Below, piece after piece: positions 6,692 through 44,111 of a DNA stretch of 64,000 bases. Origin of the DNA: Rubellicoccus peritrichatus (lineage in GTDB: Bacteria; Verrucomicrobiota; Verrucomicrobiia; Opitutales; Cerasicoccaceae); contig NZ_CP136920.1 of NCBI RefSeq assembly GCF_033100135.1, positions 4,583,001 to 4,647,000 of the forward strand. Reading direction: 5' to 3'. How positions within the stretch are numbered: the first letter of the stretch is position 1; every line of letters starts with the position of its first letter. Under the pieces are notes generated by a model. It saw nothing but the letters and a program-made list of their open reading frames with translations. It was not told the origin of the DNA and made no database searches. The position numbers and the translations under genes were made by a program.

Positions 6692-6705
6692 GCGACTAAG
6701 TCAAC
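6692..6705 (-). repeat. Conserved 14-bp boundary motif, copy A
   Basis: On the minus strand this reads GTTGACTTAGTCGC. The TGA in it is the stop codon of the 6701-6988 gene, and the motif ends 10 nt before the fibre gene start. It shares 19 bp (through TGTCA) with copy B. Four exact copies occur in the structural region and none was found elsewhere in the window. The centre GACT-T-AGTC is palindromic. Confidence 0.8.
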
Positions 6706-6988: not shown

Positions 6989-9542
6989 TGAAATCAAGGG
7001 GTTCCTCTTGCGGCTCAACTAATATACCATCCTCGTATTCATCTCGCTCACTGCCCTTCAGGTCCTCAATCCAAATAATCTCATTATTTCCGGCATCGAT
7101 GATTTCATAATCCGCATCCTTTTTGCTCGATTCACCTTTTTCATAGCTGAATGACTTGGTAATGGTGGTTTCTGTCACAGCCCCGGTGATTACATTCAAG
7201 GTTTTTTTCACATAGCTAAAATCCTCTGAGCGAGCCTCCAAAGCGGAAGAGGTCAACTCCCCCCGAAACTTCACCCTGAAGCGTTGGCGTTGATACTTGA
7301 CTTCATTGTTATGCAAATAATTCGCCGCAACATATGAGCCGTAAGGAGAGCCAGATAAGCGAGAACCAAGGAGTGTTGGCCAATCACCACTAACCTCAGA
7401 ATTAAGGCGTGATTTCAATTGAGCTGTGGTGTATTCGTTGCTGAGAGTCGATTTAAGATTCTGCTCAAGTGTATTTTCATTGCATATAATCTCGCGCTTA
7501 TATTCGCGTTCGGTATCTGACTCAGATTGTGGTTTGAGCGGACGCAATCCCGTAAGCTTTGAGCTTGTAGATGGTTGTAACAGAAATCCTTCTGGCCAGT
7601 TTGCACTACCTTGCGCGGCGACTAAATCTTCTGAGAATGCGGTGGGAGTTGAGTATACTCCTTCGAGATCCCACTCTCGCACGCCGGAATAACTCTTAGG
7701 ATCAAGATTGAGATCCTGACATCCGGCAAAGCTGCCATTAAAAGTCTCAGTGCGATAGACCTTGATTGGGTCATTCTCCTGATAGCTGAATACACCCTTC
7801 TTCTCGACTGACCCACCTTGATATTGTATCTCACCAACGGATAGCTGACTCATACCCTTAACCCCGACAACCGTCACAGACATGTGCTCAGCAGGAGCCG
7901 ACACCGTAAACCAGCCAGTAGTTGCCTCGTAATCCCCCTTGTTCGCTGTGACAGTTGCGCTGCGCTCAGTCCAGGTGTAGGTGTCTTTATCGCTGACACC
8001 CTCCTCGCGCTGTTCATGCTGCCAGGTTCGTTCGCGCCAACTTAGTTTAATGCTCACTCCGCCGGTTAGATCATAACCGATAAGTGGCAACCGAACACGG
8101 TAGCGCAGCTCACCCTTGGACATGCTATCGCGATATTCATTAATCGAGTGATGAGCGACAGAGGATGAAGAGGATAAATAGGTCAGCCAATGCACAGCGG
8201 AATTGGTAACGCCTGCTGCTTTTTTCTTGTTCGCTTCTGACAAGTTCGCTTGAGCAATGGTGAGCTGATCATTCGCCTCGTCAATTGATTCATCATGCCC
8301 AGGCAAGCTATCTTCCGTGCTATGAATTGATGCCAACGTTCCGCTAGGGTTAGGCAACTCAGCTAATAGGTCATCAATTTCACTGGTGAGCTGGTCTCTT
8401 TCATTTTCTAAAGCTGACTCTTCCGACTCAGACAATTCCTTGTAGAGTAGTTGATGGCGAACCCAAATACGGCGATTATCCTTATCGCTGATTTGCTGGC
8501 GCTTCTGATTAAACTCCACTATCTCGGAGGCGTAGTCACTCTTCAAGCTGGCAATATCCGACTCAGTATCTGCTTTTGCCTGTATTAAGTCCGCAACTCT
8601 GTCGGTGTAGAAATCTACGGTTGATTGAGCACTAATGACATTATCTTCATCATCTTCTACTCGATTTGATAGCGCCTTATTATAACTTTCTTCAGTGTTA
8701 AAGTTCAGACGGCGAAGCCTAGGACGATATGAGCGAAATATGCTCAATGCTATGTTTACATTCAAATAATTAGCCGCTGCTAAGGCGCCATCAGCAAGCG
8801 CTTGCATGTCTCCCTCTGTGAATTCGTCACTCAGCGTTAGACTTCCTGATGTCTGGGTATTTCCAACATTGGGGTCCTTCTTCATCTGAGTATTACTTAC
8901 GACGGTATCGGCGTAAACAATGCCCGCTTGGACGTTTTCCGTTATGTCAGTAACACTTGTTACTGGCTGAAATATTGGTACTCCAGTATCAGGATCTTCC
9001 CCGGTTTGTTGGCAACTTGTGAAAGATGACGTTCCTTCTGCGACATATTCCTTTGAATATCCATCAGCGCAGAAGCCAGTAAATGGACAAACGCCTTCGG
9101 GGTTACTCTGCTGAAGCGTTCCTGACATAGCGATCACTTCGCCGTGTTGATACGTCTCATCACCGCAAGTTGCTTCCATTGTATTGTCCTCATTGCGACT
9201 ATAAGTGCCATTCAATGCAGTGAACACATAATTGTCAGCATCATCAGGGGCATTATCATCCACAAGCTGTAATATGCGATCACCGTCTGTCGTCTCCCCT
9301 TGGTTGATAACTTCTACTTTTCCGGTTCCGCTTGATTTGCGGTAGAATGTCCCAGGTGTTTCAAAGCCCGTAAAACCTTTCTTCATGCCTGAACCTGAAC
9401 GACTTTGATAGACAACACTTGCACCCGCTGGAACACACACGCACTTGCACGGTCTTCGATTTCGATTCCTTATCGGATAAGGCACACCGTCACCATGGCC
9501 TACGAAATAGGGCAAGTCTACTGCTGTCAGAAAATCTGCCAT
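6981..9542 (-). CDS. Large tail protein with central coiled coil
   Basis: 853 residues. The N-terminal third is Cys-containing and beta-rich (KCVCVPAG, EATCGDET, CPFTGFCADG). Residues of about 285-445 are highly charged helix, predicted coiled coil (for example DRVADLIQAKADTESDIASL). The C-terminal part is beta-rich and ends in acidic repeats (DEYEDGILVEPQEEPLD). No named family recognised. Size and place between the tape measure group and the fibre suggest a tail-tip or central fibre component. Confidence 0.55.
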   Translation of the reverse strand: MADFLTAVDLPYFVGHGDGVPYPIRNRNRRPCKCVCVPAGASVVYQSRSGSGMKKGFTGFETPGTFYRKSSGTGKVEVINQGETTDGDRILQLVDDNAPDDADNYVFTALNGTYSRNEDNTMEATCGDETYQHGEVIAMSGTLQQSNPEGVCPFTGFCADGYSKEYVAEGTSSFTSCQQTGEDPDTGVPIFQPVTSVTDITENVQAGIVYADTVVSNTQMKKDPNVGNTQTSGSLTLSDEFTEGDMQALADGALAAANYLNVNIALSIFRSYRPRLRRLNFNTEESYNKALSNRVEDDEDNVISAQSTVDFYTDRVADLIQAKADTESDIASLKSDYASEIVEFNQKRQQISDKDNRRIWVRHQLLYKELSESEESALENERDQLTSEIDDLLAELPNPSGTLASIHSTEDSLPGHDESIDEANDQLTIAQANLSEANKKKAAGVTNSAVHWLTYLSSSSSVAHHSINEYRDSMSKGELRYRVRLPLIGYDLTGGVSIKLSWRERTWQHEQREEGVSDKDTYTWTERSATVTANKGDYEATTGWFTVSAPAEHMSVTVVGVKGMSQLSVGEIQYQGGSVEKKGVFSYQENDPIKVYRTETFNGSFAGCQDLNLDPKSYSGVREWDLEGVYSTPTAFSEDLVAAQGSANWPEGFLLQPSTSSKLTGLRPLKPQSESDTEREYKREIICNENTLEQNLKSTLSNEYTTAQLKSRLNSEVSGDWPTLLGSRLSGSPYGSYVAANYLHNNEVKYQRQRFRVKFRGELTSSALEARSEDFSYVKKTLNVITGAVTETTITKSFSYEKGESSKKDADYEIIDAGNNEIIWIEDLKGSERDEYEDGILVEPQEEPLDFNA

Positions 9543-9545
9543 AGC

Positions 9546-10142
9546 TCAAGCAGCGACAATTACTGCATTTCGATAAATGGTGGAACATCCGGATTCACTG
9601 GCACCGGTTTCGACACGTAAGTTTGTCTTCACTGCACTATAAAATGCAGTTGGAGCGTTCTCACTGGAGTCATACGAAAAGAGAATTGTGTAAAGCGTCG
9701 TGGGTATATTCCCGTTATTGCTCGGAGCCTGTGTGACGGGAACAGTCGAAGATTCTTCGATCGTTGCTCCTGTGACTTCGCCTTGCTGGGTAATATTTGT
9801 TTCCAGGTAGACGACTCGACCTTCAGCATTACCATTGAGGGTGATTTCTCCATTCCAATTATTAGGCAATTCATTGTTAATGGTACCAGGGATGAGCTTG
9901 ACCGCCAAAGCGTTGTTAGCATTTCCAGCTGAATATGGCTTCCAGGGGTGATCTTCGCGAACTGTGGATTCACTTCTTGCTGTCAATTCTGCAACCCACC
10001 CTAATGGCGTCTGTGTAATTCGTAGTCCTTTATGGCCATTCCCCGGGGCTCCCCTATTGCTCTGCTCAATAAGCTCATTAAGACGAGATACTGTCACCTC
10101 ATCTTCAATACGCCTTGACCCTTTAAACCGCCAACTAATCAT
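9546..10142 (-). CDS. Tail-region protein of unknown function
   Basis: 198 residues, beta-rich, no TM or signal. It begins MISWRFKGSRRIEDEVTVSR and contains NNWNGEITLNGNAEGRVVYL. Its start overlaps the stop of 10139-10837 by 4 bp and it ends 3 bp before the 853-aa tail gene, so it belongs to the tail operon. Probably a tail-tip or minor tail component; unrecognised. Confidence 0.5.
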   Translation of the reverse strand: MISWRFKGSRRIEDEVTVSRLNELIEQSNRGAPGNGHKGLRITQTPLGWVAELTARSESTVREDHPWKPYSAGNANNALAVKLIPGTINNELPNNWNGEITLNGNAEGRVVYLETNITQQGEVTGATIEESSTVPVTQAPSNNGNIPTTLYTILFSYDSSENAPTAFYSAVKTNLRVETGASESGCSTIYRNAVIVAA

Positions 10143-10837
10143 TTCCTATAAACTAGTTCATTCCACCCATCCTTGCCTGAAAGCATCCAGCCTTCAGACA
10201 CAGCAAAAACGTCTGCCTCTTCAGTGTAAGTAAATTCAATTTTCAACCAATTCCTTGACCCGATAGCGGGCTCGTTGCCAGCTGGTGAATCAATGCTTCC
10301 CAGATCCGTCAATCCTGAGGGCTTCGTCCTGGAAAGGTATCGCTTGCGGAAAATTACGCCTGGGGATAGGAAGCTTTCGATGCCTGCTAATTTTGCACTT
10401 TGTACAGCTTCACTTGTTGCATTAAATCCAACAAATAAGCCATCATCATCCGTGATGATTCCATCGACGCCCACCCCCTGCTCTATAACGCTCCAATTCG
10501 AAGAGGTTCTAATTGGCTCAGTGGACATGGTACCAACGACTTCATAAACAGGAGGAGGAAGTCCTCCCCCTGTTCCGTTGATTTGCCCTCCCCTAAACTC
10601 TGCCGTCCATTCACCCAACCCACCAGGCAAGAAGCGTGGACTCACAATCTTACAAACAAGATTTGGATAGTTGGAATGTCTGTTGCCTTGAGTTGGTATT
10701 AATCTGAGCAAGTCATTGCCATTGCACTTAAAAGTCTCACGCAGTGTCACAAGACCAATATCACTGATGGTAATATCGGGTGGTTGTGTGCAAACTTTTA
10801 CCCCTGATGTAAGCTTACCTTGACGTGCTACACTCAT
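10139..10837 (-). CDS. Tail-region protein of unknown function
   Basis: 232 residues, beta-rich, Gly/Pro-containing loop GGQINGTGGGLPPPVYEV. It overlaps the tape measure stop by 4 bp at its start and the next gene by 4 bp at its end: tight translational coupling. The first gene after a tape measure is often the distal tail (Dit-like) or tail-tip adaptor protein, and length and composition would allow that, but no motif confirms it. Confidence 0.5.
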   Translation of the reverse strand: MSVARQGKLTSGVKVCTQPPDITISDIGLVTLRETFKCNGNDLLRLIPTQGNRHSNYPNLVCKIVSPRFLPGGLGEWTAEFRGGQINGTGGGLPPPVYEVVGTMSTEPIRTSSNWSVIEQGVGVDGIITDDDGLFVGFNATSEAVQSAKLAGIESFLSPGVIFRKRYLSRTKPSGLTDLGSIDSPAGNEPAIGSRNWLKIEFTYTEEADVFAVSEGWMLSGKDGWNELVYRK

Positions 10838-35565: not shown

Positions 35566-35739
35566 CTACTTTTTATCCAGCTCCTTGAAATATGCATCAA
35601 GGTGGACCGTAAGCCAATTTGACCGTGAGCGAGATTCTTCTGCCGCTGCTTTGTCCATGCGCTTAACTAGCTTCTGAGGCAGAGACACGGAGACTTGAGC
35701 GTTTTTGGGGTTTCGCTTTGGTACGTGCTTCTTGGCCAT
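35566..35739 (-). CDS. Ribbon-helix-helix protein (basic)
   Basis: 57 residues from the ATG at 35739. MAKKHVPKRNPKNAQVSVSL has a basic lead and a strand (AQVSVSLP); KLVKRMDKAAAEESRSRSNW and LTVHLDAYFKEL give the two helices with the 'SRSNW' turn typical of RHH repressors. An in-frame extension upstream would read into the divergent promoter and is unlikely. It diverges from the RHH at 35827, an Arc/Mnt-like pairing. The start base is the first base shared with position 1 of the window. Confidence 0.68.
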   Translation of the reverse strand: MAKKHVPKRNPKNAQVSVSLPQKLVKRMDKAAAEESRSRSNWLTVHLDAYFKELDKK

Positions 35740-35826
35740 TTCCGCGATGTCACTAGCTAAAACACTGACATTCAAGACAAAAGAGCCTTGCCATACTGCA
35801 TGATGTGTCCTACACACTAAGACAAT

Positions 35827-35997
35827 ATGGGCGATGAGAGACAGCGGACATGTATTGTCCTACCTGAAAATCTGATCAAGCGAATAGACAAATTTGTAGC
35901 ACAGAAAAACCTTAGCAACAGGAGCGAAGCATTAGAAAAAGCTCTTGAGGAAATACTACCTGAAGAAGATGAAACGAAGCTTAACGAAGCTGAATAG
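35827..35997 (+). CDS. Ribbon-helix-helix DNA-binding protein (right copy)
   Basis: 56 residues, identical to the protein at 89-259: strand TCIVLPEN and helix pair around KNLSNRSEALEKAL. In this copy the divergent basic RHH gene (35566-35739) is complete, so the full control region is visible, with TGTGT-CCT-ACACA at 35804-35816 between the starts. Confidence 0.7.
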   Translation: MGDERQRTCIVLPENLIKRIDKFVAQKNLSNRSEALEKALEEILPEEDETKLNEAE

Positions 35998-36078
35998 TGT
36001 CCGATACTATTAATGAACCCCCTAAAATATTAGGGCAAGAAATCAACCTAACTCCCCTCCCTGTCTCAATTCCAGTAA

Positions 36079-36465
36079 GTGCCGATGAGACAGCTTGACG
36101 ACATAAACGCACACCTTGAGAGCCTGATAGACAAGTATGGTGGCACTCAAACAGCACTCCTGACCAAGCTGAAGTTAGAGGGCAAGGACTATCTGCTGTC
36201 ACGCTTTCGCCGAGATGGGAGCATGGATGAAGTCTTTGTTGCCGCTGCTGTCAATTACTTGACCGAAGACGAAGCCCTACCCTTTGCCACCTACTACATC
36301 AATGCAATTTTGAAGCCCCCCTACGCGCTAGACGTTGTCAGATACGATAAGCAGAGGCGAAAGACTGCACACGACCTGGATACTTTACCCAAGAAAGAAG
36401 AGAACATGTTTCTGAGGGGGCTTTCGGCTATCATACACATTATCAACCGCCCTGACAAAAAGTAG
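36079..36465 (+). CDS. Phage protein of unknown function (right copy)
   Basis: 128 residues, identical to 341-727 (GTG at 36079 or ATG at 36085). It follows the plus-strand RHH gene. Charged, helical and cytoplasmic; no family recognised. Confidence 0.5.
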   Translation: MPMRQLDDINAHLESLIDKYGGTQTALLTKLKLEGKDYLLSRFRRDGSMDEVFVAAAVNYLTEDEALPFATYYINAILKPPYALDVVRYDKQRRKTAHDLDTLPKKEENMFLRGLSAIIHIINRPDKK

Positions 36466-36548
36466 ACTCCCTAAAATGAAATGATCGAGCTGATTAAAGT
36501 TTTGATATACATAATTCTAGGGCCTGATGACCCTAAGAACCCAGGTAA

Positions 36549-36956
36549 TCATAGCTCCTCGTCTCGCGTATTGGCAGCTATATCTGGATCATAACCCAGG
36601 ATCGATTTAGCGACATGGTGAGCGTCCCAATGTTTAGGCGGGATCATGTCTCGCTCCTGCCGGAACTCCACATTGCGCCAGTGCTCCAAAACGCCTACCT
36701 GCTTGCTGATGACCTGCTGTAAGTCCTCAACCTTGTCTGACAGAGCAAGGCCGCTCAACATTGGCCAGTCGGGAGCGTGCATTTCAAACCCCGCCTCTTT
36801 CGCGGTATCCACATGGGCTTGAAGCTCCTGAAAAAGCATACTGATGGCTTGGCGCAATTTCTCCGGGTCATCACAGTTTTGGGCAATGTGCCTCCAGTAA
36901 AATGCTCCCTGTTTTGCGCTGCTCATATAGTAAGATGGCTGTCTTTCTGCTGGCAT
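36549..36956 (-). CDS. Phage protein of unknown function (right copy)
   Basis: 135 residues, identical to 811-1218, 59 bp downstream of the integrase on the same strand. No motif recognised. Confidence 0.45.
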   Translation of the reverse strand: MPAERQPSYYMSSAKQGAFYWRHIAQNCDDPEKLRQAISMLFQELQAHVDTAKEAGFEMHAPDWPMLSGLALSDKVEDLQQVISKQVGVLEHWRNVEFRQERDMIPPKHWDAHHVAKSILGYDPDIAANTRDEEL

Positions 36957-37014
36957 TTCACAAGACTAAAAGAGCCTGCGAAAGTGTCTAGGGGAAAGTG
37001 ATAAAATCTGACCT

Positions 37015-38088
37015 TCACGGCCTCAACTCAGCAAGGTTTGACGCCATCGCCTTTGTAATACCCATGCCCTGATAGTTTTGATACAACATATCTTGGTTTC
37101 GATGACCCAAATTTTTGGCGGTTGCTGCAGGATCAGCGAAGTAAGCAACGTGATAGGTGCAATGGGTGTGACGAATAGCGTCATGGGGCCAATCTCGAAT
37201 AGTTTTACCCCTGTTGGCATATCCCGCTAGTTGCTTCCATCGCTTGGTGACGCTTGATGGCATTATTTTACAAACTGGACCCTTTCTCATTTCTTTGGGA
37301 ATCGACTCTAGCCATTCCCAAATGACATCGAAATGCTTGCTGTCTCCGTCGAGTATGCGCCCGCTCTCCCCCTTGCTGGTGACATTTGTTAAAGTAATGA
37401 TCCTGTCAGAAAGATTGATGTCACGTTCCCATGTCATGGCGGGCTTGCTGCCACCGGGCGCGATCTCATGCGGCCTCAACCCTGCGAAGATTCCAAGAGC
37501 AGCCGATGCCCTAAGATTCATTTTGGCACCCCTGAGGATGAAAACTATGTCGTCAAACTCAAGAATCCGAGGCTTCCCGGATTCATCCTTAGCTCTGTAA
37601 TCCTTGCGGGCCGTTGCGTTCGGCATCCTCAGCTTCAGCTTTTGGGCTGGGTTGATCGGAATCAAGGGAGGCTCCAAACTACAAGCATATCCAAACAAAG
37701 CCCTAATGGCCCGATGGTGACAGTTGATGCTTCCAACTGACAGCTTCAGTCCCTCCAAGTAGCCTACAACGTCATTGCGGGTTAGTTCGCCTATCCGCTT
37801 ATTGCCGTGTTGATCCAGGAATCCCGGAATAGTGTCTTGGTAGAATTCCAAGGTTTCCATGGACATGGGCTTAGGCTGTCCCGATCTCACGCGATTCAGG
37901 CACTCCAGGAGCCATTTATCGCATACTTCAGACACAGTAGGACCTGACCCAGTAACAGAACTATGCCCAATATGAGACTTGCCTATTCGAACAAGCTCAA
38001 GGAAGTTAAAACCCGTTCCTTCAGCTTCAGCGACCGCCAAGCGCGTAAGCTGCTTTTGTTCAGGACTTAATGCGAAATTACTTCTCAT
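37015..38088 (-). CDS. int: Tyrosine-family integrase (right copy)
   Basis: 357 residues, identical to 1277-2350. Catalytic set Arg205, Arg306, His329 and Tyr339. This copy is 141 bp from the intact tRNA-Arg target, the normal arrangement in an integrated prophage. Confidence 0.93.
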   Translation of the reverse strand: MRSNFALSPEQKQLTRLAVAEAEGTGFNFLELVRIGKSHIGHSSVTGSGPTVSEVCDKWLLECLNRVRSGQPKPMSMETLEFYQDTIPGFLDQHGNKRIGELTRNDVVGYLEGLKLSVGSINCHHRAIRALFGYACSLEPPLIPINPAQKLKLRMPNATARKDYRAKDESGKPRILEFDDIVFILRGAKMNLRASAALGIFAGLRPHEIAPGGSKPAMTWERDINLSDRIITLTNVTSKGESGRILDGDSKHFDVIWEWLESIPKEMRKGPVCKIMPSSVTKRWKQLAGYANRGKTIRDWPHDAIRHTHCTYHVAYFADPAATAKNLGHRNQDMLYQNYQGMGITKAMASNLAELRP

Positions 38089-38228
38089 GGACCTCCTGAT
38101 TTTTCATAGGGAGGATTCTCTCGAAAATGCCCCAAAATGTCAATATTTTGCCTATATTTTGGAGAATTTAGACCGCAAAAAAGGTCGTTTTTCAGCCAAA
38201 GATATTCTGTAAGTCGTTGAATATCAAA

Positions 38229-38305
38229 TGGCACGCCGCCAGGGAGTCGAACCCCGAACCTCCTGATCCGTAGTCAGGTGCTCTATCCAATTGAGCTAGC
38301 GGCGC
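38229..38305 (-). tRNA. tRNA-Arg(ACG), prophage target
   Basis: 77-nt cloverleaf with encoded CCA: acceptor GCGCCGC/GCGGCGT (one G-U), D arm GCTC/GAGC, anticodon stem CCTGA/TCAGG with loop CTACGGA (anticodon ACG), T arm CGGGG-TTCGACT-CCCTG, discriminator G. The phage supplies the 3' half from 38229 to 38278, so integration restores an intact gene. ACG (read as ICG) serves CGU/CGC/CGA codons. Confidence 0.96.
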
Positions 38306-38437
38306 TCATGGAAATGGAAAGCCGGGAACAATGTGGTGTTCTCAAATAGAGATCAAGCACAAGTTTTCACTTTTTTCACATTTAATTTTTAGAGAGCTGC
38401 TTGCCATTGGTAACTAAATAGAAAGAGAATAAAATTC

Positions 38438-39109
38438 ATGGAGCCTGTTACCCCCAGTACTGCACTTAAAAAGGTCTTTCACGGAAACAATCAATTTGTC
38501 CAAAAACAGGACCATGAAAAATTCGAGGCTTACGAAAATGAACAACACCCATCTATCACATTACTGACATGCTGTGACTCACGTGTTCAAGGCAGTGTTT
38601 TCGGTCTTGATCCGATTGATCAATTTTTCTCGATTCGCAACATCGGAAATCAACTGACTGCTGCCACCGGCTCAATTGACTATGGAGTACGCAATCTTCA
38701 AACACCTCTCCTGCTTATCCTTGGTCATACAAGATGTGGTGCGGTCAAAGCAGCAATGGGAGACTATAGAAATGAATCGATGCAGATCATTCAGGAGTTA
38801 AATGGCCTTCATATCTCCCTGATGGATGTCGACTCAGCCAGCGATAAAGAAGCAGCGTGGCTACATGCAGTGGAAAAGAACGTCGATTATCAAGTCGAAC
38901 TTGCACAACGCCGCTACGCTGAGGAAGTAAACAGCGGTAGGCTGGTAATCGCAGGCTGTGTTTATGACTTTGTAAATCTCTACGGCAAAAATCGCGGACG
39001 GGTCATATTACGAAACCTGAATGGAGAGACAAATCCTCAGAAAATTCGTGATTCTGAAGTATTACAAAGTCTGGATCAGGAGATCCTTAAACAGATTATA
39101 ATAATGTAA
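38438..39109 (+). CDS. Beta-class carbonic anhydrase
   Basis: 223 residues. Zinc and active-site residues are all present: Cys in LLTCCDSRV (about 45-46) with the Asp47-Arg49 dyad, and His97 and Cys100 in ILGHTRCGAV. It interconverts CO2 and bicarbonate in the cytoplasm. It has no signal peptide. It is the first chromosomal gene after the prophage target tRNA, with its own ~130-bp upstream region. Convergent with the fusion gene at 39123. Confidence 0.93.
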   Translation: MEPVTPSTALKKVFHGNNQFVQKQDHEKFEAYENEQHPSITLLTCCDSRVQGSVFGLDPIDQFFSIRNIGNQLTAATGSIDYGVRNLQTPLLLILGHTRCGAVKAAMGDYRNESMQIIQELNGLHISLMDVDSASDKEAAWLHAVEKNVDYQVELAQRRYAEEVNSGRLVIAGCVYDFVNLYGKNRGRVILRNLNGETNPQKIRDSEVLQSLDQEILKQIIIM

Positions 39110-39122
39110 TACAAAGATGAAC

Positions 39123-41729
39123 TTAAGCCTCAAACTTGTCTCTACTGCGATAGTCGAAAAACAAACCAAAGACTTGAAGTGTCGAAAGGTTTTTGTGCCC
39201 TGCCTTACGATTCAGTGAAGCAATTTTGAAGGCAATTCTCCACTGTTTGGCAAGGGTCTTCAAACCAAACCAATAAGAATGCTTCGGATCATAGATATAA
39301 GTTGCTTCCGAAGAAAGTCCGTTGAGCTCGATTACTTTAATATTCTTTCCCTTCGCCAAGTCAGTCTCAGAGGGAACACGCACATCATATCGCCCAAACC
39401 AGAAGCCATCGAAGTGCCTGCTGATTTCATCGAACGCGGCCAATGTGGCTGGCGTGGACAACTCACTCCCATCCAAAAAGAGTGAACCACGACAGTGGGT
39501 TCCCAAGTCTGTCAGAGTAATCTTTTCACCTGACTCCAGTACATCATCCAATCGATTTTCAAACTTATCGAGAAAGAACTTTGCCATGCAAACCGCTCGG
39601 TTATCCATCAGGATCAGGCGTTCAAGGGTGCTGGCACCATCGCCGGTTATGCTTGGAAAACGTTTATCCGTAATGCCCAGGATATGTCCTGTTTCTTCGC
39701 CCGGATAACGATAATAGAAAACTCCAAATTCGCATCCCGGAACAAACTCCTGGGCGATTGTATCTCCAAGGCAATCCTCCAGATAAGAACGGGCTTCTTC
39801 GCTCTTTTTAACAATAGCAACGCCTTGCCCTCGTTCACCAAGATCAGGCTTCAACACAATAGGATAGGAAAGCTCTTCCTTATTTATAAAAGTTTTTAGG
39901 GACTCGAGATTCTCTTCCAAAGAAGTCTCTTTTTTCAAAAGCACCCATCTCGCAATAGTATCCCCTGCCCCTTTTAAGTTTTCCAGAATTTGTGATTTTG
40001 CTTCCCCCGCAAGACCACCGCCATTTGGAATGCCAGGATTGACTGCTGTGAAAAGCGGAGCGCAGCGATACTTAATCAAGCCATGCCATGTAATGTATAA
40101 TCCAATAGGAATGTACATGGCCCAAAGCGGCCAAAACTCCCAGCTGGTCATACGCTTCCATCGTGAAAGAACCAAACGCCTTCCCCGCCAGGTTAATAAC
40201 GGGACAATCCAACGAAGGAATAACCAGGCTAGGACGAAGACCAGGACCAATCCAAGCAGGGCAAAGCGTTCGTAACGCTCCATAACGTTGAGCACCGTAT
40301 CACCAACCATGTAAGCGATTCCAACGAGGATTGGTGTCCAAGCAAAAACAGCTACAATAAAATAGAAAAGAAACTTTTGTAACGGTATTCTCAAAACACC
40401 CGCTGCGACATAACAAGGCAATCGTAGCCCGGGAACAAAACGTGCTAGTAGAATGATCAAAGCCCCACGCCGATGATACCATTTGGCCATGCGATTGACA
40501 GAAGCCTCGGAGACAAACCATTTGAGTGGAGCTCTTTTCAAAGCCGGTGCCCCCATAAAATAGCCTGCCAGGTAAAGCAGCATATCGCCAATAAAAATAC
40601 CGACAGCACATGCCACAGTCGCAGCCCAGTATGGCAAGACACCGCGCGAAGCAAGCACACCTCCAATGATACAGCTGAAGTCTTCGGCCACTTGAGTGCC
40701 AAGTGCCAACAAGACCATCATGACACCATAACCTTGATCACGCACGGACTGAGGAATCTCGTCCGCTATATTCGTTTGAGGATCAAAGGTCTTACTCTCA
40801 ATTGCCTTTACAAAATTGAGTATTGGAGCCACGTAAGATTCCGCATCACGAAGCATTTGAAGATGCCCTCCTTTAAGCCAGTGCATCTCCGGCTTCTGTG
40901 CAATCATGGCATGCTCGGCAGCTGCTCTTGGAGGAACAAATCTATCCTGCTCACCATGCAGGATCAGCATCGGGCCGTCGTATTTTTCTATAATGGAGCG
41001 AAAAGGCCGCTGATCAGTATCATAAAAGTTACGTGCGTAGGCTACATTCAGGATACCATGATCCATGTAACCAAAATGTGGAAACAGGTTTTGTAAGGAC
41101 CACAAACCCATGAGCTGAAACCAATGCAGTCCGTGATTCAATGTATAATCCCCTAATAATTCATGCTCCTGAACTCCGATAGCCGAGCCCATGACCAAAC
41201 CTTCGACCCGCTGAGGGGCAATATCAGCAATATTGAGTATCACACCTCCACCCATGCTATAGCCCACAAAGTAGGCTTGCTCAATACCAAGGGTATCAAG
41301 CAAAGCCAAAGTATAGTATGCGCCTGCCCGGGTGGAGTAATCCTTAATATCTATTGTCGAACCACCAAATCCCGGAAGGTCCGGCACAATGACGCGGGCA
41401 TCCTCTTGCAGTAATGGATACACCTTCTTCAGTGCCACGGACCCAACCGGACTTCCGTGAATCAAAACAATGACTGGAGCATCAGGATTCCCCGAAAGCG
41501 GTGGAAGATCCCGATAAGCAATCTGAACTATCTTACCGGTTTCGTCATCACGATCAAATTCAGGAACTTCAATACGTTTTTGGCCGGCGCCAAGCTCCCC
41601 TTCCGATGGAACGAAAAAGCGGGCAATCGTCGAGGCGATGAGCAGTAAGAAAAAAATCCCTCCAAGGAACAACCATAACGAACTACGCCGAGCCGCAGAA
41701 TGCTTTTCCATCGCTGACACGAATGACAA
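39123..41729 (-). CDS. Three-domain fusion: alpha/beta hydrolase, DedA/VTT membrane domain, ATP-grasp
   Basis: 868 residues. N-terminal TM (about 17-36), then an alpha/beta hydrolase (about 70-310) with oxyanion HGSPVGS, nucleophile elbow GYSMGGG, Asp in HGEQDRF and His in KGGHLQML. Residues ~340-530 are a DedA/VTT (SNARE-associated) membrane domain with ARFVPGLRLPCYVAAG. Residues ~590-868 are ATP-grasp-like: VLKPDLGERGQGVAIV, IAQEFVPGCEFGVFYY and the metal-binding KVIELNGLSSEA. The fusion suggests a membrane enzyme that moves or modifies a lipid or peptide-like substrate. It is the last gene of a three-gene operon, abutting the NRDE gene. Substrate unknown. Confidence 0.8.
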   Translation of the reverse strand: MSFVSAMEKHSAARRSSLWLFLGGIFFLLLIASTIARFFVPSEGELGAGQKRIEVPEFDRDDETGKIVQIAYRDLPPLSGNPDAPVIVLIHGSPVGSVALKKVYPLLQEDARVIVPDLPGFGGSTIDIKDYSTRAGAYYTLALLDTLGIEQAYFVGYSMGGGVILNIADIAPQRVEGLVMGSAIGVQEHELLGDYTLNHGLHWFQLMGLWSLQNLFPHFGYMDHGILNVAYARNFYDTDQRPFRSIIEKYDGPMLILHGEQDRFVPPRAAAEHAMIAQKPEMHWLKGGHLQMLRDAESYVAPILNFVKAIESKTFDPQTNIADEIPQSVRDQGYGVMMVLLALGTQVAEDFSCIIGGVLASRGVLPYWAATVACAVGIFIGDMLLYLAGYFMGAPALKRAPLKWFVSEASVNRMAKWYHRRGALIILLARFVPGLRLPCYVAAGVLRIPLQKFLFYFIVAVFAWTPILVGIAYMVGDTVLNVMERYERFALLGLVLVFVLAWLFLRWIVPLLTWRGRRLVLSRWKRMTSWEFWPLWAMYIPIGLYITWHGLIKYRCAPLFTAVNPGIPNGGGLAGEAKSQILENLKGAGDTIARWVLLKKETSLEENLESLKTFINKEELSYPIVLKPDLGERGQGVAIVKKSEEARSYLEDCLGDTIAQEFVPGCEFGVFYYRYPGEETGHILGITDKRFPSITGDGASTLERLILMDNRAVCMAKFFLDKFENRLDDVLESGEKITLTDLGTHCRGSLFLDGSELSTPATLAAFDEISRHFDGFWFGRYDVRVPSETDLAKGKNIKVIELNGLSSEATYIYDPKHSYWFGLKTLAKQWRIAFKIASLNRKAGHKNLSTLQVFGLFFDYRSRDKFEA

Positions 41730-42473
41730 TCAGACGAGGCAAGCATGAGGAGTCAACCTCACTGTAACCGCTTGGCCAAAACGTTTCTCACCAAGTTGCT
41801 TGGGCTGGTAAGACATTAAAATAGCTTCGGGCCCAACTTCAATTTGGCAGAGACTGACGGTTTCAGAATCATCACGTTGCATAAAAACTGAATGCGAAGC
41901 AGCTTCAGGCATGGAGTAATGATGAAATTCACGGAGCTTCTCAGAAGATGGATCTTCATTTCCCGCAACCATGTCAGCAAAGAGCTTCCGTCGTGCCTCG
42001 ATGACTTCGTCGCTCATGAAAGAGGAAGAAGTAACCGGCAATGAGGCTTTAGCCTGTGCATCAATACTAAGAGAATGTGTATCCCAACGGTACAAGCAGC
42101 CCTCATTTCCTGGCTCAATGACCATCAGAAGAAAGCCTTCATAATGAGCAAGGTCAATCAATTCGACTTTGCGTGTCACAGAATCGATATCCCGACAAGA
42201 TGCCAGCAGTTCGACCAGCCGCCCACGGCTGATTCGCGGCTGCTTCATAGGAGCCGGGCTCTCAGGGTATTGATTAAGCAAGCTGACAGTCAGGCCATAC
42301 TCGTTAACCAAAATCCATGTACCACCACCATCAGGATCACGAGGGCATATGTATTTAACGCCTTCCTTGGAGTGAAGCTTGGGTTCAATCCCCGGGGATC
42401 GATCCTTACGCTCGTCACGACTAAAAAATAACTCGTAACGTGCAGAATCACTCCACCATGTAGCCGTACACAT
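41730..42473 (-). CDS. NRDE/TANGO2-family protein
   Basis: 247 residues. Starts MCTATWWSD with a Cys2 that could be an N-terminal nucleophile, followed by the family signature region FFSRDERKDRS (a variant of NRDE) and DGGGTWILVNEYGLTVSLLN. TANGO2-like proteins are Ntn-hydrolase-like and implicated in haem or lipid handling; the bacterial role is unclear. 3 bp after the DinB-like gene and 0 bp before the fusion gene: one operon. Confidence 0.75.
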   Translation of the reverse strand: MCTATWWSDSARYELFFSRDERKDRSPGIEPKLHSKEGVKYICPRDPDGGGTWILVNEYGLTVSLLNQYPESPAPMKQPRISRGRLVELLASCRDIDSVTRKVELIDLAHYEGFLLMVIEPGNEGCLYRWDTHSLSIDAQAKASLPVTSSSFMSDEVIEARRKLFADMVAGNEDPSSEKLREFHHYSMPEAASHSVFMQRDDSETVSLCQIEVGPEAILMSYQPKQLGEKRFGQAVTVRLTPHACLV

Positions 42474-42476
42474 GAA

Positions 42477-42992
42477 TTATACCTTAGTTTTGTTGTGCTT
42501 CAGAGTCGAAGGAGCGACTCCAAAGTCTTTATCAAGCGTAATTCCCAGACGCTTGCACATAACTGCAATCAAAGCATAATGGTGAACAGTATGACTCAAA
42601 AGGAACTGCAATTCGCGGCGAACCGTTGAACGACTCCACTCATCCTCTGGAAGTGCATAACTGCCTGTGTCCATTTTCACACGGACGTCACGCTCAAGAT
42701 CCACATCCGTTAACGCAGCAAGTGCTTTCGCGATATCATCACTGGCATTAGCAGCAGTTGATGGATTGGTCTCAACCTGAGTATCGCGAGCGCGGGCATC
42801 GTAGTCGATTTCACCACCTGCATAGCCTCTTAAAAGACTCCAATAGTGATCTAAATTATGCCGGATATGCCCACCGATACTGCTGTTGAAACAGTCCGGA
42901 TGTTTCCGCATGTAAAACTCTTCCGGAATACGGCGCAACAGTGATGCACCCTGATTCAGGATCGAATAGCAATCTTCAAGAAGGCCGTTCAT
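42477..42992 (-). CDS. DinB-like four-helix protein
   Basis: 171 residues. The metal-binding His pattern of the DinB/YfiT superfamily is seen as SSIGGHIRHNLDHYWSLLRG and later FLLSHTVHHYALIAV. Family members are metal-dependent thiol S-transferases or unknown. First gene of the minus operon with NRDE and the fusion protein; the link between them is unexplained. Confidence 0.7.
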   Translation of the reverse strand: MNGLLEDCYSILNQGASLLRRIPEEFYMRKHPDCFNSSIGGHIRHNLDHYWSLLRGYAGGEIDYDARARDTQVETNPSTAANASDDIAKALAALTDVDLERDVRVKMDTGSYALPEDEWSRSTVRRELQFLLSHTVHHYALIAVMCKRLGITLDKDFGVAPSTLKHNKTKV

Positions 42993-43181
42993 AATTATAT
43001 TATTTGCGGATTAGAGAGTCCCGCAGCCATATAGGCAAGCGAGAACCTGAAATCACAGTTGTCCTAGTAGTCGTTCGGCATCCATAAACCTTGCAATGAC
43101 TTATTCGCAAATTCAGTAAAACAGCAATAACGATTTGACTAGTTTGCATTTCTTAACTCATCGTCAAAAAACCTAACTGAC

Positions 43182-44111
43182 ATGAACAAATTACGTATTT
43201 CCATCGCTTCATTGATTATTGGGGCCATCGCAGCTTCTACACCATTGAACGCTCAAACGATTTCCAGTGGTGATTCCGTCCTCAATTTTCTCTCACCGCA
43301 AACACCTCTTGGCATCAGCATCAGCCAGGGGATTGAGAACAGCTTTGGCAGCGATCTGAAGTCCCCAGGAACGGGCGATCTCAGCATTCTACGCCTTGAT
43401 ACAAACCTGACATACTCCAAAAGCTACGATTTATCCTTTTTCAGAGCGGGTTTCACCTACGAATACTCCGACTATGACTGGAGCAACGCATCACCTTTCA
43501 GTAAGACGAATTCCTTTGGTCTGAACGGATTTGGCCTCCACACCTTTGAAAAAGACAGACCTTGGGGCGTTTTTGGTCTAGCATCCTTGCGTTGGGGAGC
43601 TGAAGACAATGCTTCACTCGGTGAAGGTTTCAGCTTTCTTGGCGCAGTGGGTCCCACCTATTCCTTTTCCAAGAAGTTGCGTATTGGAGCAGGATTGATG
43701 GTGATAACCCAGCCTCAACAAGCTACACGCTATCTACCTATTGTTACCCTGAACTGGGAAATAAACGACCACTGGAGCATCAGAACCTTTAACGGGGCAA
43801 CCGTCACTTATGACCTCAATGCAGATAAAGAGACTCGGCTGGACTTCACCGTCCAATATGAGACTCGTGATTTCGTCCTCAAAACACAGACTTCTCCGAC
43901 CGGCATTACGGATGAGCCAGCAGTCGCCGAAGAGAGTGTCATCGTGGTTTTTGGTGTGACTCAAAAAATCGGAGGCCCGTTTTTTGTTCGCGCTTACCTT
44001 GAAGGTAATCTCTTCCGTGAATTTGAGCTTAGGGCAGATGGTAACAAATACCAAACAATCAAATCCGACCCAGCGATTGGTCTCGGATTCCAGGTTGGTG
44101 CAAATTTTTAA
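43182..44111 (+). CDS. Predicted outer-membrane beta-barrel protein
   Basis: 309 residues. Signal peptide MNKLRISIASLIIGAIAAST with cleavage after LNAQ. The mature part has alternating strands with aromatic girdles (SYDLSFFRAGFTYEYSDYDW, GVFGLASLRWGAEDN, GPTYSFSKKLRIGAGLMVI) and ends with a barrel-closing GLGFQVGANF (C-terminal Phe). Resembles DUF6268-type porin-like proteins. Likely an outer-membrane channel or structural barrel. Confidence 0.65.
   Translation: MNKLRISIASLIIGAIAASTPLNAQTISSGDSVLNFLSPQTPLGISISQGIENSFGSDLKSPGTGDLSILRLDTNLTYSKSYDLSFFRAGFTYEYSDYDWSNASPFSKTNSFGLNGFGLHTFEKDRPWGVFGLASLRWGAEDNASLGEGFSFLGAVGPTYSFSKKLRIGAGLMVITQPQQATRYLPIVTLNWEINDHWSIRTFNGATVTYDLNADKETRLDFTVQYETRDFVLKTQTSPTGITDEPAVAEESVIVVFGVTQKIGGPFFVRAYLEGNLFREFELRADGNKYQTIKSDPAIGLGFQVGANF

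Follow-up and report, generated by a model that had tools for sequence, protein, structure and literature searches.

What might one membrane protein do with a hydrolase, a DedA domain and a ligase joined in a single chain? This question is raised by a gene of Rubellicoccus peritrichatus. The window analyzed here is a stretch of 64,000 nucleotides from contig NZ_CP136920.1, and the gene is an open reading frame on its minus strand (39123-41729), referred to below as the fusion. It is the last gene of an operon with the order dinB, TANGO2 and fusion, all on the same strand. An earlier interpretation made from the letters of this DNA (the sequence-only reading) had proposed a machine that acts on a lipid-linked or aminoacyl group. 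Comparison of the locus with its relatives showed that gene order and co-occurrence connect the cassette (dinB, TANGO2, DedA, ATP-grasp and often an alpha/beta hydrolase) with OlsB/OlsA and OlsF, the enzymes of acyl-amino-acid membrane lipid synthesis, and on this basis we consider its link to aminolipids to be very probable.

The relatives were obtained by scanning a contig collection with two peptide patterns. This gave 432 stretches, 403 of which contained a relative of the ATP-grasp domain; the best 80 of these (L043-L122) were kept, and all counts out of 80 refer to them. The count of ols neighbours covers the fetched sequence, which extends up to 7 kb to either side of the match. Gene clustering at the 80 loci revealed two further frequent neighbours besides dinB and TANGO2, present at 28 and 22 loci. 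All five neighbours that were typed with Pfam and NCBIfam were nearest to OlsB (124.6 and 132.8 bits), OlsA (133.3 and 125.2 bits) or OlsF (397.9 bits), at scores that lie under the NCBIfam equivalog cut-offs and do not specify the head-group amino acid. Searches with profile hidden Markov models (HMM) placed an olsB- or olsF-type gene at 40 of the 80 loci and olsA at 27; a locus with olsA alone (L059) would make it 41 loci if counted. At three loci (L053, L093 and L096), olsF but not olsB was matched, so that the gene there is probably the O-acyltransferase half only. The 40 loci are spread over eight phyla, namely Verrucomicrobiota (17), Acidobacteriota (12), Balneolota (4), Calditrichota (2), Rhodothermota (2) and, with one locus each, Thermodesulfobacteriota, Spirochaetota and Planctomycetota. 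This adjacency of ols genes is a new observation. The sequence-only reading, made without it, pointed in the right direction with its lipid-linked or aminoacyl group; the three domains may or may not work in one catalytic sequence.

At six loci (L058, L098, L102, L105, L109 and L118), the ols gene overlaps the fusion or ligase gene by exactly 4 nucleotides; larger overlaps arise at least partly from the use of the longest frame. The position of the ols genes varies: they lie upstream of dinB (L069, L106, L137), downstream of the fusion (L055, L107, L109) or in the gap between the ligase gene and dinB (L035). At locus L136, the ligase gene is followed by a run of two olsB paralogues and an olsA gene (8178-10718), and the two paralogues may correspond to two different amino-acid head groups. 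Seven loci also carry, near the ols genes, a ferric-reductase-type membrane protein with a Rieske domain (e.g., L061, 1947-3925), and its partner without a Pfam match was likewise seen at seven loci.

Co-occurrence was examined at the level of whole genomes. The OlsB-type domain (Acetyltransf_5) is present in 77 of the 80 carrier genomes; this number is made up of 37 of the 40 genomes without an adjacent ols gene, all 12 scanned genomes with one, and 28 whose locus itself gave the HMM match. For the controls, 288 genomes of Verrucomicrobiota and 149 of Acidobacteriota, the phylum of G394 (the genome of L077), were sampled, with thresholds in the former of E up to 1e-40 for ATP-grasp and up to 1e-8 for Acetyltransf_5. 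In Verrucomicrobiota, Acetyltransf_5 was found in 23 of 28 ATP-grasp carriers vs. at least 132 of 260 non-carriers (p 0.001), and in Acidobacteriota in 17 of 18 carriers vs. 18 of 131 non-carriers (p 7e-12), both p values ignoring shared descent. The two genes lie within 10 kb of each other in 5 of the 23 verrucomicrobial and 14 of the 17 acidobacterial cases, the chance for the latter being about 0.5% each. The verrucomicrobial carriers lacking Acetyltransf_5 are G046, G060, G154, G290 (a broken fragment) and G326. At the same threshold, the domain matched 1 of 14 well-known control genomes.

A tree of the ligase part was built by a quick method from 70 rows (the window protein, 63 of the 80 loci and 6 plasmid loci), and 28 of its 67 inner branches are weak. 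It requires at least 13 changes of domain make-up and at least 16 changes of ols adjacency, which indicates that the ols link is not a single inherited accident.

Is the fusion itself real? It is one open frame, located in a one-contig genome of 5.8 Mb, and a near full-length copy is present in 9 of 10 genomes of the same family, its own included, with an identity of 51-67% outside its own genome; among these ten, G003 alone lacks such a copy. All three domains also occur together at 54 of the 80 loci. These findings exclude the mis-joining of separate genes, which the sequence-only reading had named as a possible flaw, as well as an artefact of the frame. Counted from TTG at 41729, the protein has 868 residues; ATG at 41711, six codons inside, is the likelier start and gives 862. 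The gap between dinB and TANGO2 is 3 nucleotides, and that between the TANGO2 stop and this ATG is 18. A scan of positions 38300-43300 for sigma-70 promoters gave 7 sites vs. 7.3 expected by shuffling.

The Pfam profiles matched all three domains above their gathering cut-offs, in agreement with the sequence-only reading: Abhydrolase_1 with 85.8 bits (cut-off 25.8), VTT_dom with 58.3 bits (33.9) and RimK-like ATP-grasp with 22.9 bits (21). Since the last match is weak and covers residues 594-657 only, the third domain was tested by structure, which settled its identity as ATP-grasp. For this, the C-terminal 362 residues were modelled alone from a 57-row alignment, with a mean predicted local distance difference test score (pLDDT) of 95.2 and a predicted template modelling score (pTM) of 0.92; the model of the whole protein had 90.5 and 0.72, respectively. 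The best solved match of the ATP-grasp model was cyanophycin synthetase 1 (CphA1, 7wae; Z 16.9, 272 residues, 4.3 A), and further matches were GshF (Z 15.3), LysX/ArgX (Z 14.7-15.2 for the best three entries) and Ddl (Z 13-14.3). A profile search of the PDB sequences with the ligase part was concordant, amide-forming ATP-grasp ligases being the nearest. Residues Lys621, Gln654, Glu661, Lys683, Arg774, Asp776, Glu795 and Asn797 are each invariant in all 51 full-length rows. Of these, Lys621, Asp776, Glu795 and Asn797 form the pattern that we take to play the nucleotide- and metal-site roles of ATP-grasp enzymes and, as judged from these residues, the site is intact in the window protein. In a separate alignment (A3), the linker residues Arg511, Arg520, Glu525 and Trp527 are invariant as well.

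The fusion ligase therefore has the fold (Z 13-17) and the Lys/Asp/Glu/Asn pattern of cyanophycin synthetase, GshF, LysX/ArgX and Ddl but, unlike them, it has no Mur-ligase or CphA N-terminal domain and is attached to membrane helices and DedA. Membership in several known families was tried and rejected. Dala_Dala_lig_C of Ddl reached 12.9 bits against a Pfam cut-off of 24, and neither the CphA N-terminal domain nor a Mur ligase, as expected of a cyanophycin synthetase, was matched among the Pfam families up to E 1. An N-acyl ornithine synthetase of the OlsH type was rejected because the ligase part is ATP-grasp and not GH3; GH3 was absent from the Pfam matches up to E 1 and from the best 25 of 52 NCBIfam rows.

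In the DedA domain, Glu343, Gly428 and Arg430 are conserved in 51 of the 51 full-length rows and Asp344 and Arg424 in 50; we assume Glu343, Asp344, Arg424 and Arg430 to be functional DedA residues. The best-scoring DedA-type match among the best 25 of 52 NCBIfam rows was UptA, with 67 bits against a cut-off of 250. The hydrolase triad that had been read from the sequence is indeed present, as Ser152/Asp256/His283, and it is complete in 43 of the 51 rows. The other eight, from Pelagicoccus and DG1235 (L051, L072, L074, L090) and Balneolaceae (L106, L113, L120, L121), have none of the three residues at the aligned positions. A Foldseek search with the whole model returned esterase/lipase folds and no DedA or ATP-grasp chain among the best 50. 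Rank 36, among many esterases, was held by the membrane phospholipase A PlaF (6i8w), presumably a Pseudomonas protein with an N-terminal anchor; like the fusion, it has an anchor followed by an alpha/beta hydrolase but, unlike it, no DedA or ATP-grasp domain.

Which of these parts is the core was judged from the domain make-up of the 80 relatives: 54 contain hydrolase, DedA and ATP-grasp, 17 contain DedA and ATP-grasp, and 9 contain ATP-grasp with a membrane helix. A hydrolase domain was thus not seen at 26 loci, three of which (L063, L065 and L092) are among the five whose gene runs off the contig at its start. Since the loci were found through ATP-grasp and genes without it could not appear, the constancy of this domain is partly by choice. 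Nevertheless, its residues are invariant in the same 51 rows in which the triad is lost in eight, which makes the ligase, together with DedA, quite likely the core of the cassette. Thus, the equal weight given to the three domains by the sequence-only reading was not borne out; the comparison suggests that DedA comes next after ATP-grasp and that the hydrolase is optional or accessory.

A divergent form of the fusion was found in five genomes of 1.6-2.3 Mb (G028, G046, G060, G074 and G087; loci L036, L037, L038, L040 and L041). The metal residues Glu and Asn of its ATP-grasp domain are lost, in two genomes only the Asn, and neither dinB nor TANGO2 occurs in the stretch fetched around it. Acetyltransf_5 is absent from G046, G060 and G087, which would fit a decay of ATP-grasp upon the loss of OlsB, but G028 and G074 retain it and contradict this explanation.

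The operon partners named by the sequence-only reading, a DinB-like and a TANGO2/NRDE-like protein, both matched above the Pfam cut-offs (Table 1). Residues were counted in 74 DinB and 59 TANGO2 rows from both locus sets; identical rows were dropped and near copies remain. The candidate metal ligands of DinB are His42 (68 of 74 rows), His134 and His138 (both 74 of 74). In TANGO2, whose N-terminus is Met-Cys, the residues Cys2, Arg19, Asp20, Glu21 and Arg25 are present in all 59 rows, in keeping with its family profile, and residue 18 is Asn in 55 rows and Ser in the window copy. The HMM searches found dinB at 58 of the 80 loci and TANGO2 at 44; 57 and 42 of these, respectively, lie upstream on the same strand within 3.5 kb. 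One or the other is present at 61 of the 72 loci that have at least 1 kb of upstream sequence. DoxX-like genes, labelled by likeness to a typed gene of L066, were observed together with a second small gene between TANGO2 and the ligase at L136 (6232-7130), L055 (5258-6402) and L118 (6098-6954); the second gene we take to be YHS-like.

The operon protein shares the Pfam family, Cys2 and the RDE of the NRDE motif with human TANGO2; it differs in being bacterial, in standing within a predicted aminolipid operon and in having Ser in place of the Asn of NRDE. An N-terminal nucleophile (Ntn) fold is predicted for it from its Pfam family and from the account of the human protein in PMC13044924. That article likens human TANGO2 to acid ceramidase, NAAA, bile-salt hydrolase and isopenicillin N acyltransferase and gives its function and substrates as unknown. 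The comparison of the window TANGO2 protein with the PDB sequences gave only a chance match to an antibody.

Elsewhere, components of the cassette are encoded by separate genes. Salinivibrio kushneri has VTT, "D-alanine--D-alanine ligase", DinB and NRDE in this order, while in Vibrio sp. THAF191d and Photobacterium sp. GJ3 dedA, ATP-grasp, dinB and TANGO2 are followed by olsF about 1 kb on. In Paracoccus denitrificans PD1222, genes for ATP-grasp (PDEN_RS24485), an alpha/beta hydrolase (PDEN_RS25810) and, on the opposite strand, VTT (PDEN_RS24475) adjoin, and Variovorax has an ATP-grasp and olsB gene pair. Nine of 28 plasmid hits were viewed; the Azospirillum loci are of the DedA-ATP-grasp type and the Komagataeibacter locus is ATP-grasp alone. 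Thus, the fusion joins proteins that are otherwise encoded apart, and the window copy is the most integrated form of the cassette among those seen.

Taken together, we propose a membrane-bound ligase for the tailoring of aminolipids, with accessory hydrolase, DedA, TANGO2 and DinB functions, and give this proposal an even chance of being correct; more broadly, the modification or recycling of such lipids is the most likely role of the fusion. The products of OlsB/A and OlsF carry an N-acyl and an O-acyl chain on an amino acid, and ornithine-taurine and glycine-serine are among the head groups named in PMC12493201. The ATP-grasp domain, lying at the cytosolic face, would activate a carboxylate as an acyl-phosphate and join it to the amine of an acyl-amino-acid lipid, so that a head group of one amino acid would gain a second amide-linked group, as in these two examples. 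This extension of the head group is a tentative assignment that falls somewhat short of even chances. The DedA domain would pass the lipid between the leaflets. The hydrolase, held outside the membrane by the N-terminal anchor, would remove or move an ester-bound acyl chain, TANGO2, as a predicted Cys Ntn enzyme, would cut or exchange the amide of the same lipid, and DinB would contribute a metal-dependent step. By the positive-inside rule, the basic N-terminus, followed by a single anchor (residues 12-30) and then the hydrolase, would place the hydrolase in the periplasm, and the ligase should lie on the cytosolic side because it needs ATP. Since the enzymes to which human TANGO2 is likened act on amides, its bacterial counterpart in the cassette would be well suited to an N-acyl amino acid lipid as substrate.

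With the Ols genes (OlsA, OlsB, OlsF, OlsE, OlsG, OlsH and OlsI), the cassette shares neighbourhoods and genomes and likely the class of substrate lipid; OlsC and OlsD are presumably further genes of ornithine-lipid synthesis or tailoring. Unlike the cassette, none of the Ols enzymes in the accessible part of PMC12493201 is an ATP-grasp, DedA, DinB or TANGO2 protein. Use of the hydrolase as a substitute for OlsA was considered and is not favoured, since olsA is also present at several loci whose triad is intact (e.g., L057, L067, L069, L075 and L077). Acyl transfer of the OlsI kind by the hydrolase is possible.

Several observations weigh against a tailoring ligase. Acetyltransf_5 was not detected at E 1e-8 in the carrier genomes of L050, L054 and L081, and it is common without the cassette, as the verrucomicrobial non-carriers show. 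In the genome of R. peritrichatus itself, an OlsF-like gene lies about 3.4 Mb from the fusion and is not adjacent to it. Neither dinB nor TANGO2 was found by HMM at 16 of the 80 loci, some of them cut by contig ends. Genes of the ols, dinB and TANGO2 types are all absent within 7-8 kb of the plasmid loci viewed in Azospirillum (2), Komagataeibacter (1) and Paracoccus (2), the chromosomes not having been searched. The divergent clade indicates that the ligase step is apparently not always kept and can be given up. The assignment of substrate and product is a prediction, and the genes alone would fit head-group extension, re-acylation or turnover equally well.

Re-acylation of amino acids by the ligase appears to be the main rival. 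Here, the ATP-grasp domain would re-join a free fatty acid and an amino acid and so make or repair N-acyl amino acid in the absence of acyl-ACP, the hydrolase and TANGO2 would free the parts from lipid that has been damaged, and DedA would return them. An ATP-grasp enzyme of Legionella is reported to make acyl-histidine from a fatty acid (PMC11631085), and human TANGO2 binds acyl-coenzyme A (PMC11867700). Moreover, PMC12493201 describes for Singulisphaera the ATP-dependent synthesis of N-acyl ornithine by OlsH together with an alpha/beta hydrolase of the same operon, OlsI, as O-acyltransferase, which resembles the cassette in combining ATP-dependent amide formation with a hydrolase in an aminolipid operon. 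However, OlsH, whose assay used cell-free extract, is an adenylating enzyme of the GH3 type and thus has a different fold from the fusion, which is ATP-grasp with membrane domains and gave no GH3 match; the likeness to OlsI is by description only. In addition, unlike the OlsH/OlsI case, the fusion is found mostly in genomes with an OlsB-type gene, where the first acylation is already supplied. We therefore regard re-acylation as rather unlikely.

A unit of turnover and transport, which would mainly export and degrade aminolipids while ATP-grasp serves in regulation or ATP sensing, would account for two likely hydrolases (the alpha/beta hydrolase and TANGO2) standing beside a DedA domain and for the divergent clade, which keeps the fusion yet loses the metal site of ATP-grasp. 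It accords poorly with the invariance of the ATP-grasp residues in rows that have lost the triad, and with genes that keep ATP-grasp without a hydrolase or DedA domain, although the loci were selected via ATP-grasp; we judge it to be distinctly unlikely. Finally, a Ddl-like ligase with a DedA domain for the undecaprenyl-phosphate carrier might act in the synthesis of wall or other envelope polymers, the ols neighbours being there by chance. Some relatives are automatically annotated as D-alanine--D-alanine ligase, and UptA is the top DedA-type match mentioned above, far under its cut-off. Given the low Dala_Dala_lig_C score and the adjacency and co-occurrence with ols genes in several phyla, such a role is highly improbable.

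Table 1. Positions of the operon genes and of the parts of the fusion protein in the window.
Feature	Position	Strand	Details and basis
DinB_2-family protein, operon gene 1, 171 residues	42477..42992	-	Pfam DinB_2, 32.5 bits (cut-off 24.8)
TANGO2/NRDE-family protein, operon gene 2, 247 residues, Met-Cys start	41730..42473	-	Pfam TANGO2, 36.5 bits (cut-off 22.6)
Fusion protein, hydrolase - DedA - ATP-grasp	39123..41711	-	862 residues (868 with TTG at 41729)
N-terminal membrane anchor, residues 12-30, behind a basic N-terminus	41622..41678	-	Hydropathy 2.37 over 19 residues; model helix 6-31
Alpha/beta hydrolase domain, residues 45-305, triad Ser152/Asp256/His283	40797..41579	-	Pfam; triad conservation; esterase/lipase folds
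DedA/VTT domain, residues 321-505	40197..40751	-	Pfam VTT_dom; conserved Glu/Asp/Arg/Gly residues
Basic helix and WEFWP helix (508-547), linker between ligase and membrane domain	40071..40190	-	Model helices 508-522 and 529-547
ATP-grasp domain, residues 572-836	39204..39998	-	Eight invariant residues; fold

The surroundings of the operon have features of their own. A direct duplicate of 2540 nucleotides is exactly repeated at 1-2540 and 35739-38278; its right copy contains an integrase-like gene (37015-38088, minus strand), with Phage_int_SAM_4 exactly at the cut-off, and ends inside a tRNA-Arg gene (38229-38305, minus strand). The 35.7 kb between the duplicates could represent an integrative element arranged in tandem with a second one. 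In this interval, GCGACTAAGTCAAC occurs in four exact copies, at 6692, 13119, 16873 and 19019 on the plus strand; the same sequence with two mismatches occurs at 42000 on the minus strand, and shuffles average 0.27 matches at two mismatches. A beta-carbonic anhydrase gene (38438-39109, plus strand) is convergent with the fusion; both it and the fusion operon lie outside the putative element, directly adjoining it. By HMM, beta-carbonic anhydrase was found at none of the 80 loci.

Ornithine-lipid synthesis is thought to be possible in about half of the sequenced bacterial species, and the transfer of taurine onto ornithine lipid is mentioned as well, with no enzyme for the extended head groups (ornithine-taurine, glycine-serine) named in the accessible part of the same article (PMC12493201). 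In the open PMC literature, we found no paper joining TANGO2 with DinB and ATP-grasp, nor ornithine lipid with DedA. Ornithine lipid appears together with ATP-grasp in one review, and DedA with ATP-grasp and a fusion in one cyanobacterial genome paper; of three papers that combine two of ornithine lipid, TANGO2, NRDE and the DinB family, the two listed combine only TANGO2 and NRDE. As its gene content indicates, this is a widespread aminolipid cassette, for which we found no name in that literature. In its fullest form, the proposal is that the cassette makes a hitherto undescribed, head-group-extended (dipeptide- or taurine-like) aminolipid in many phyla, with TANGO2 as its amidase or acyl-exchange enzyme, and that it would reveal the kind of substrate of human TANGO2; this we hold to be doubtful. 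The cassette is nevertheless a concrete candidate for the synthesis of aminolipids with extended head groups, with a separate-gene version in P. denitrificans PD1222, and the natural fusion is evidence for a DedA-type membrane domain working with a ligase. It also places TANGO2 beside a defined lipid pathway, which may help to explain the human disease protein TANGO2.

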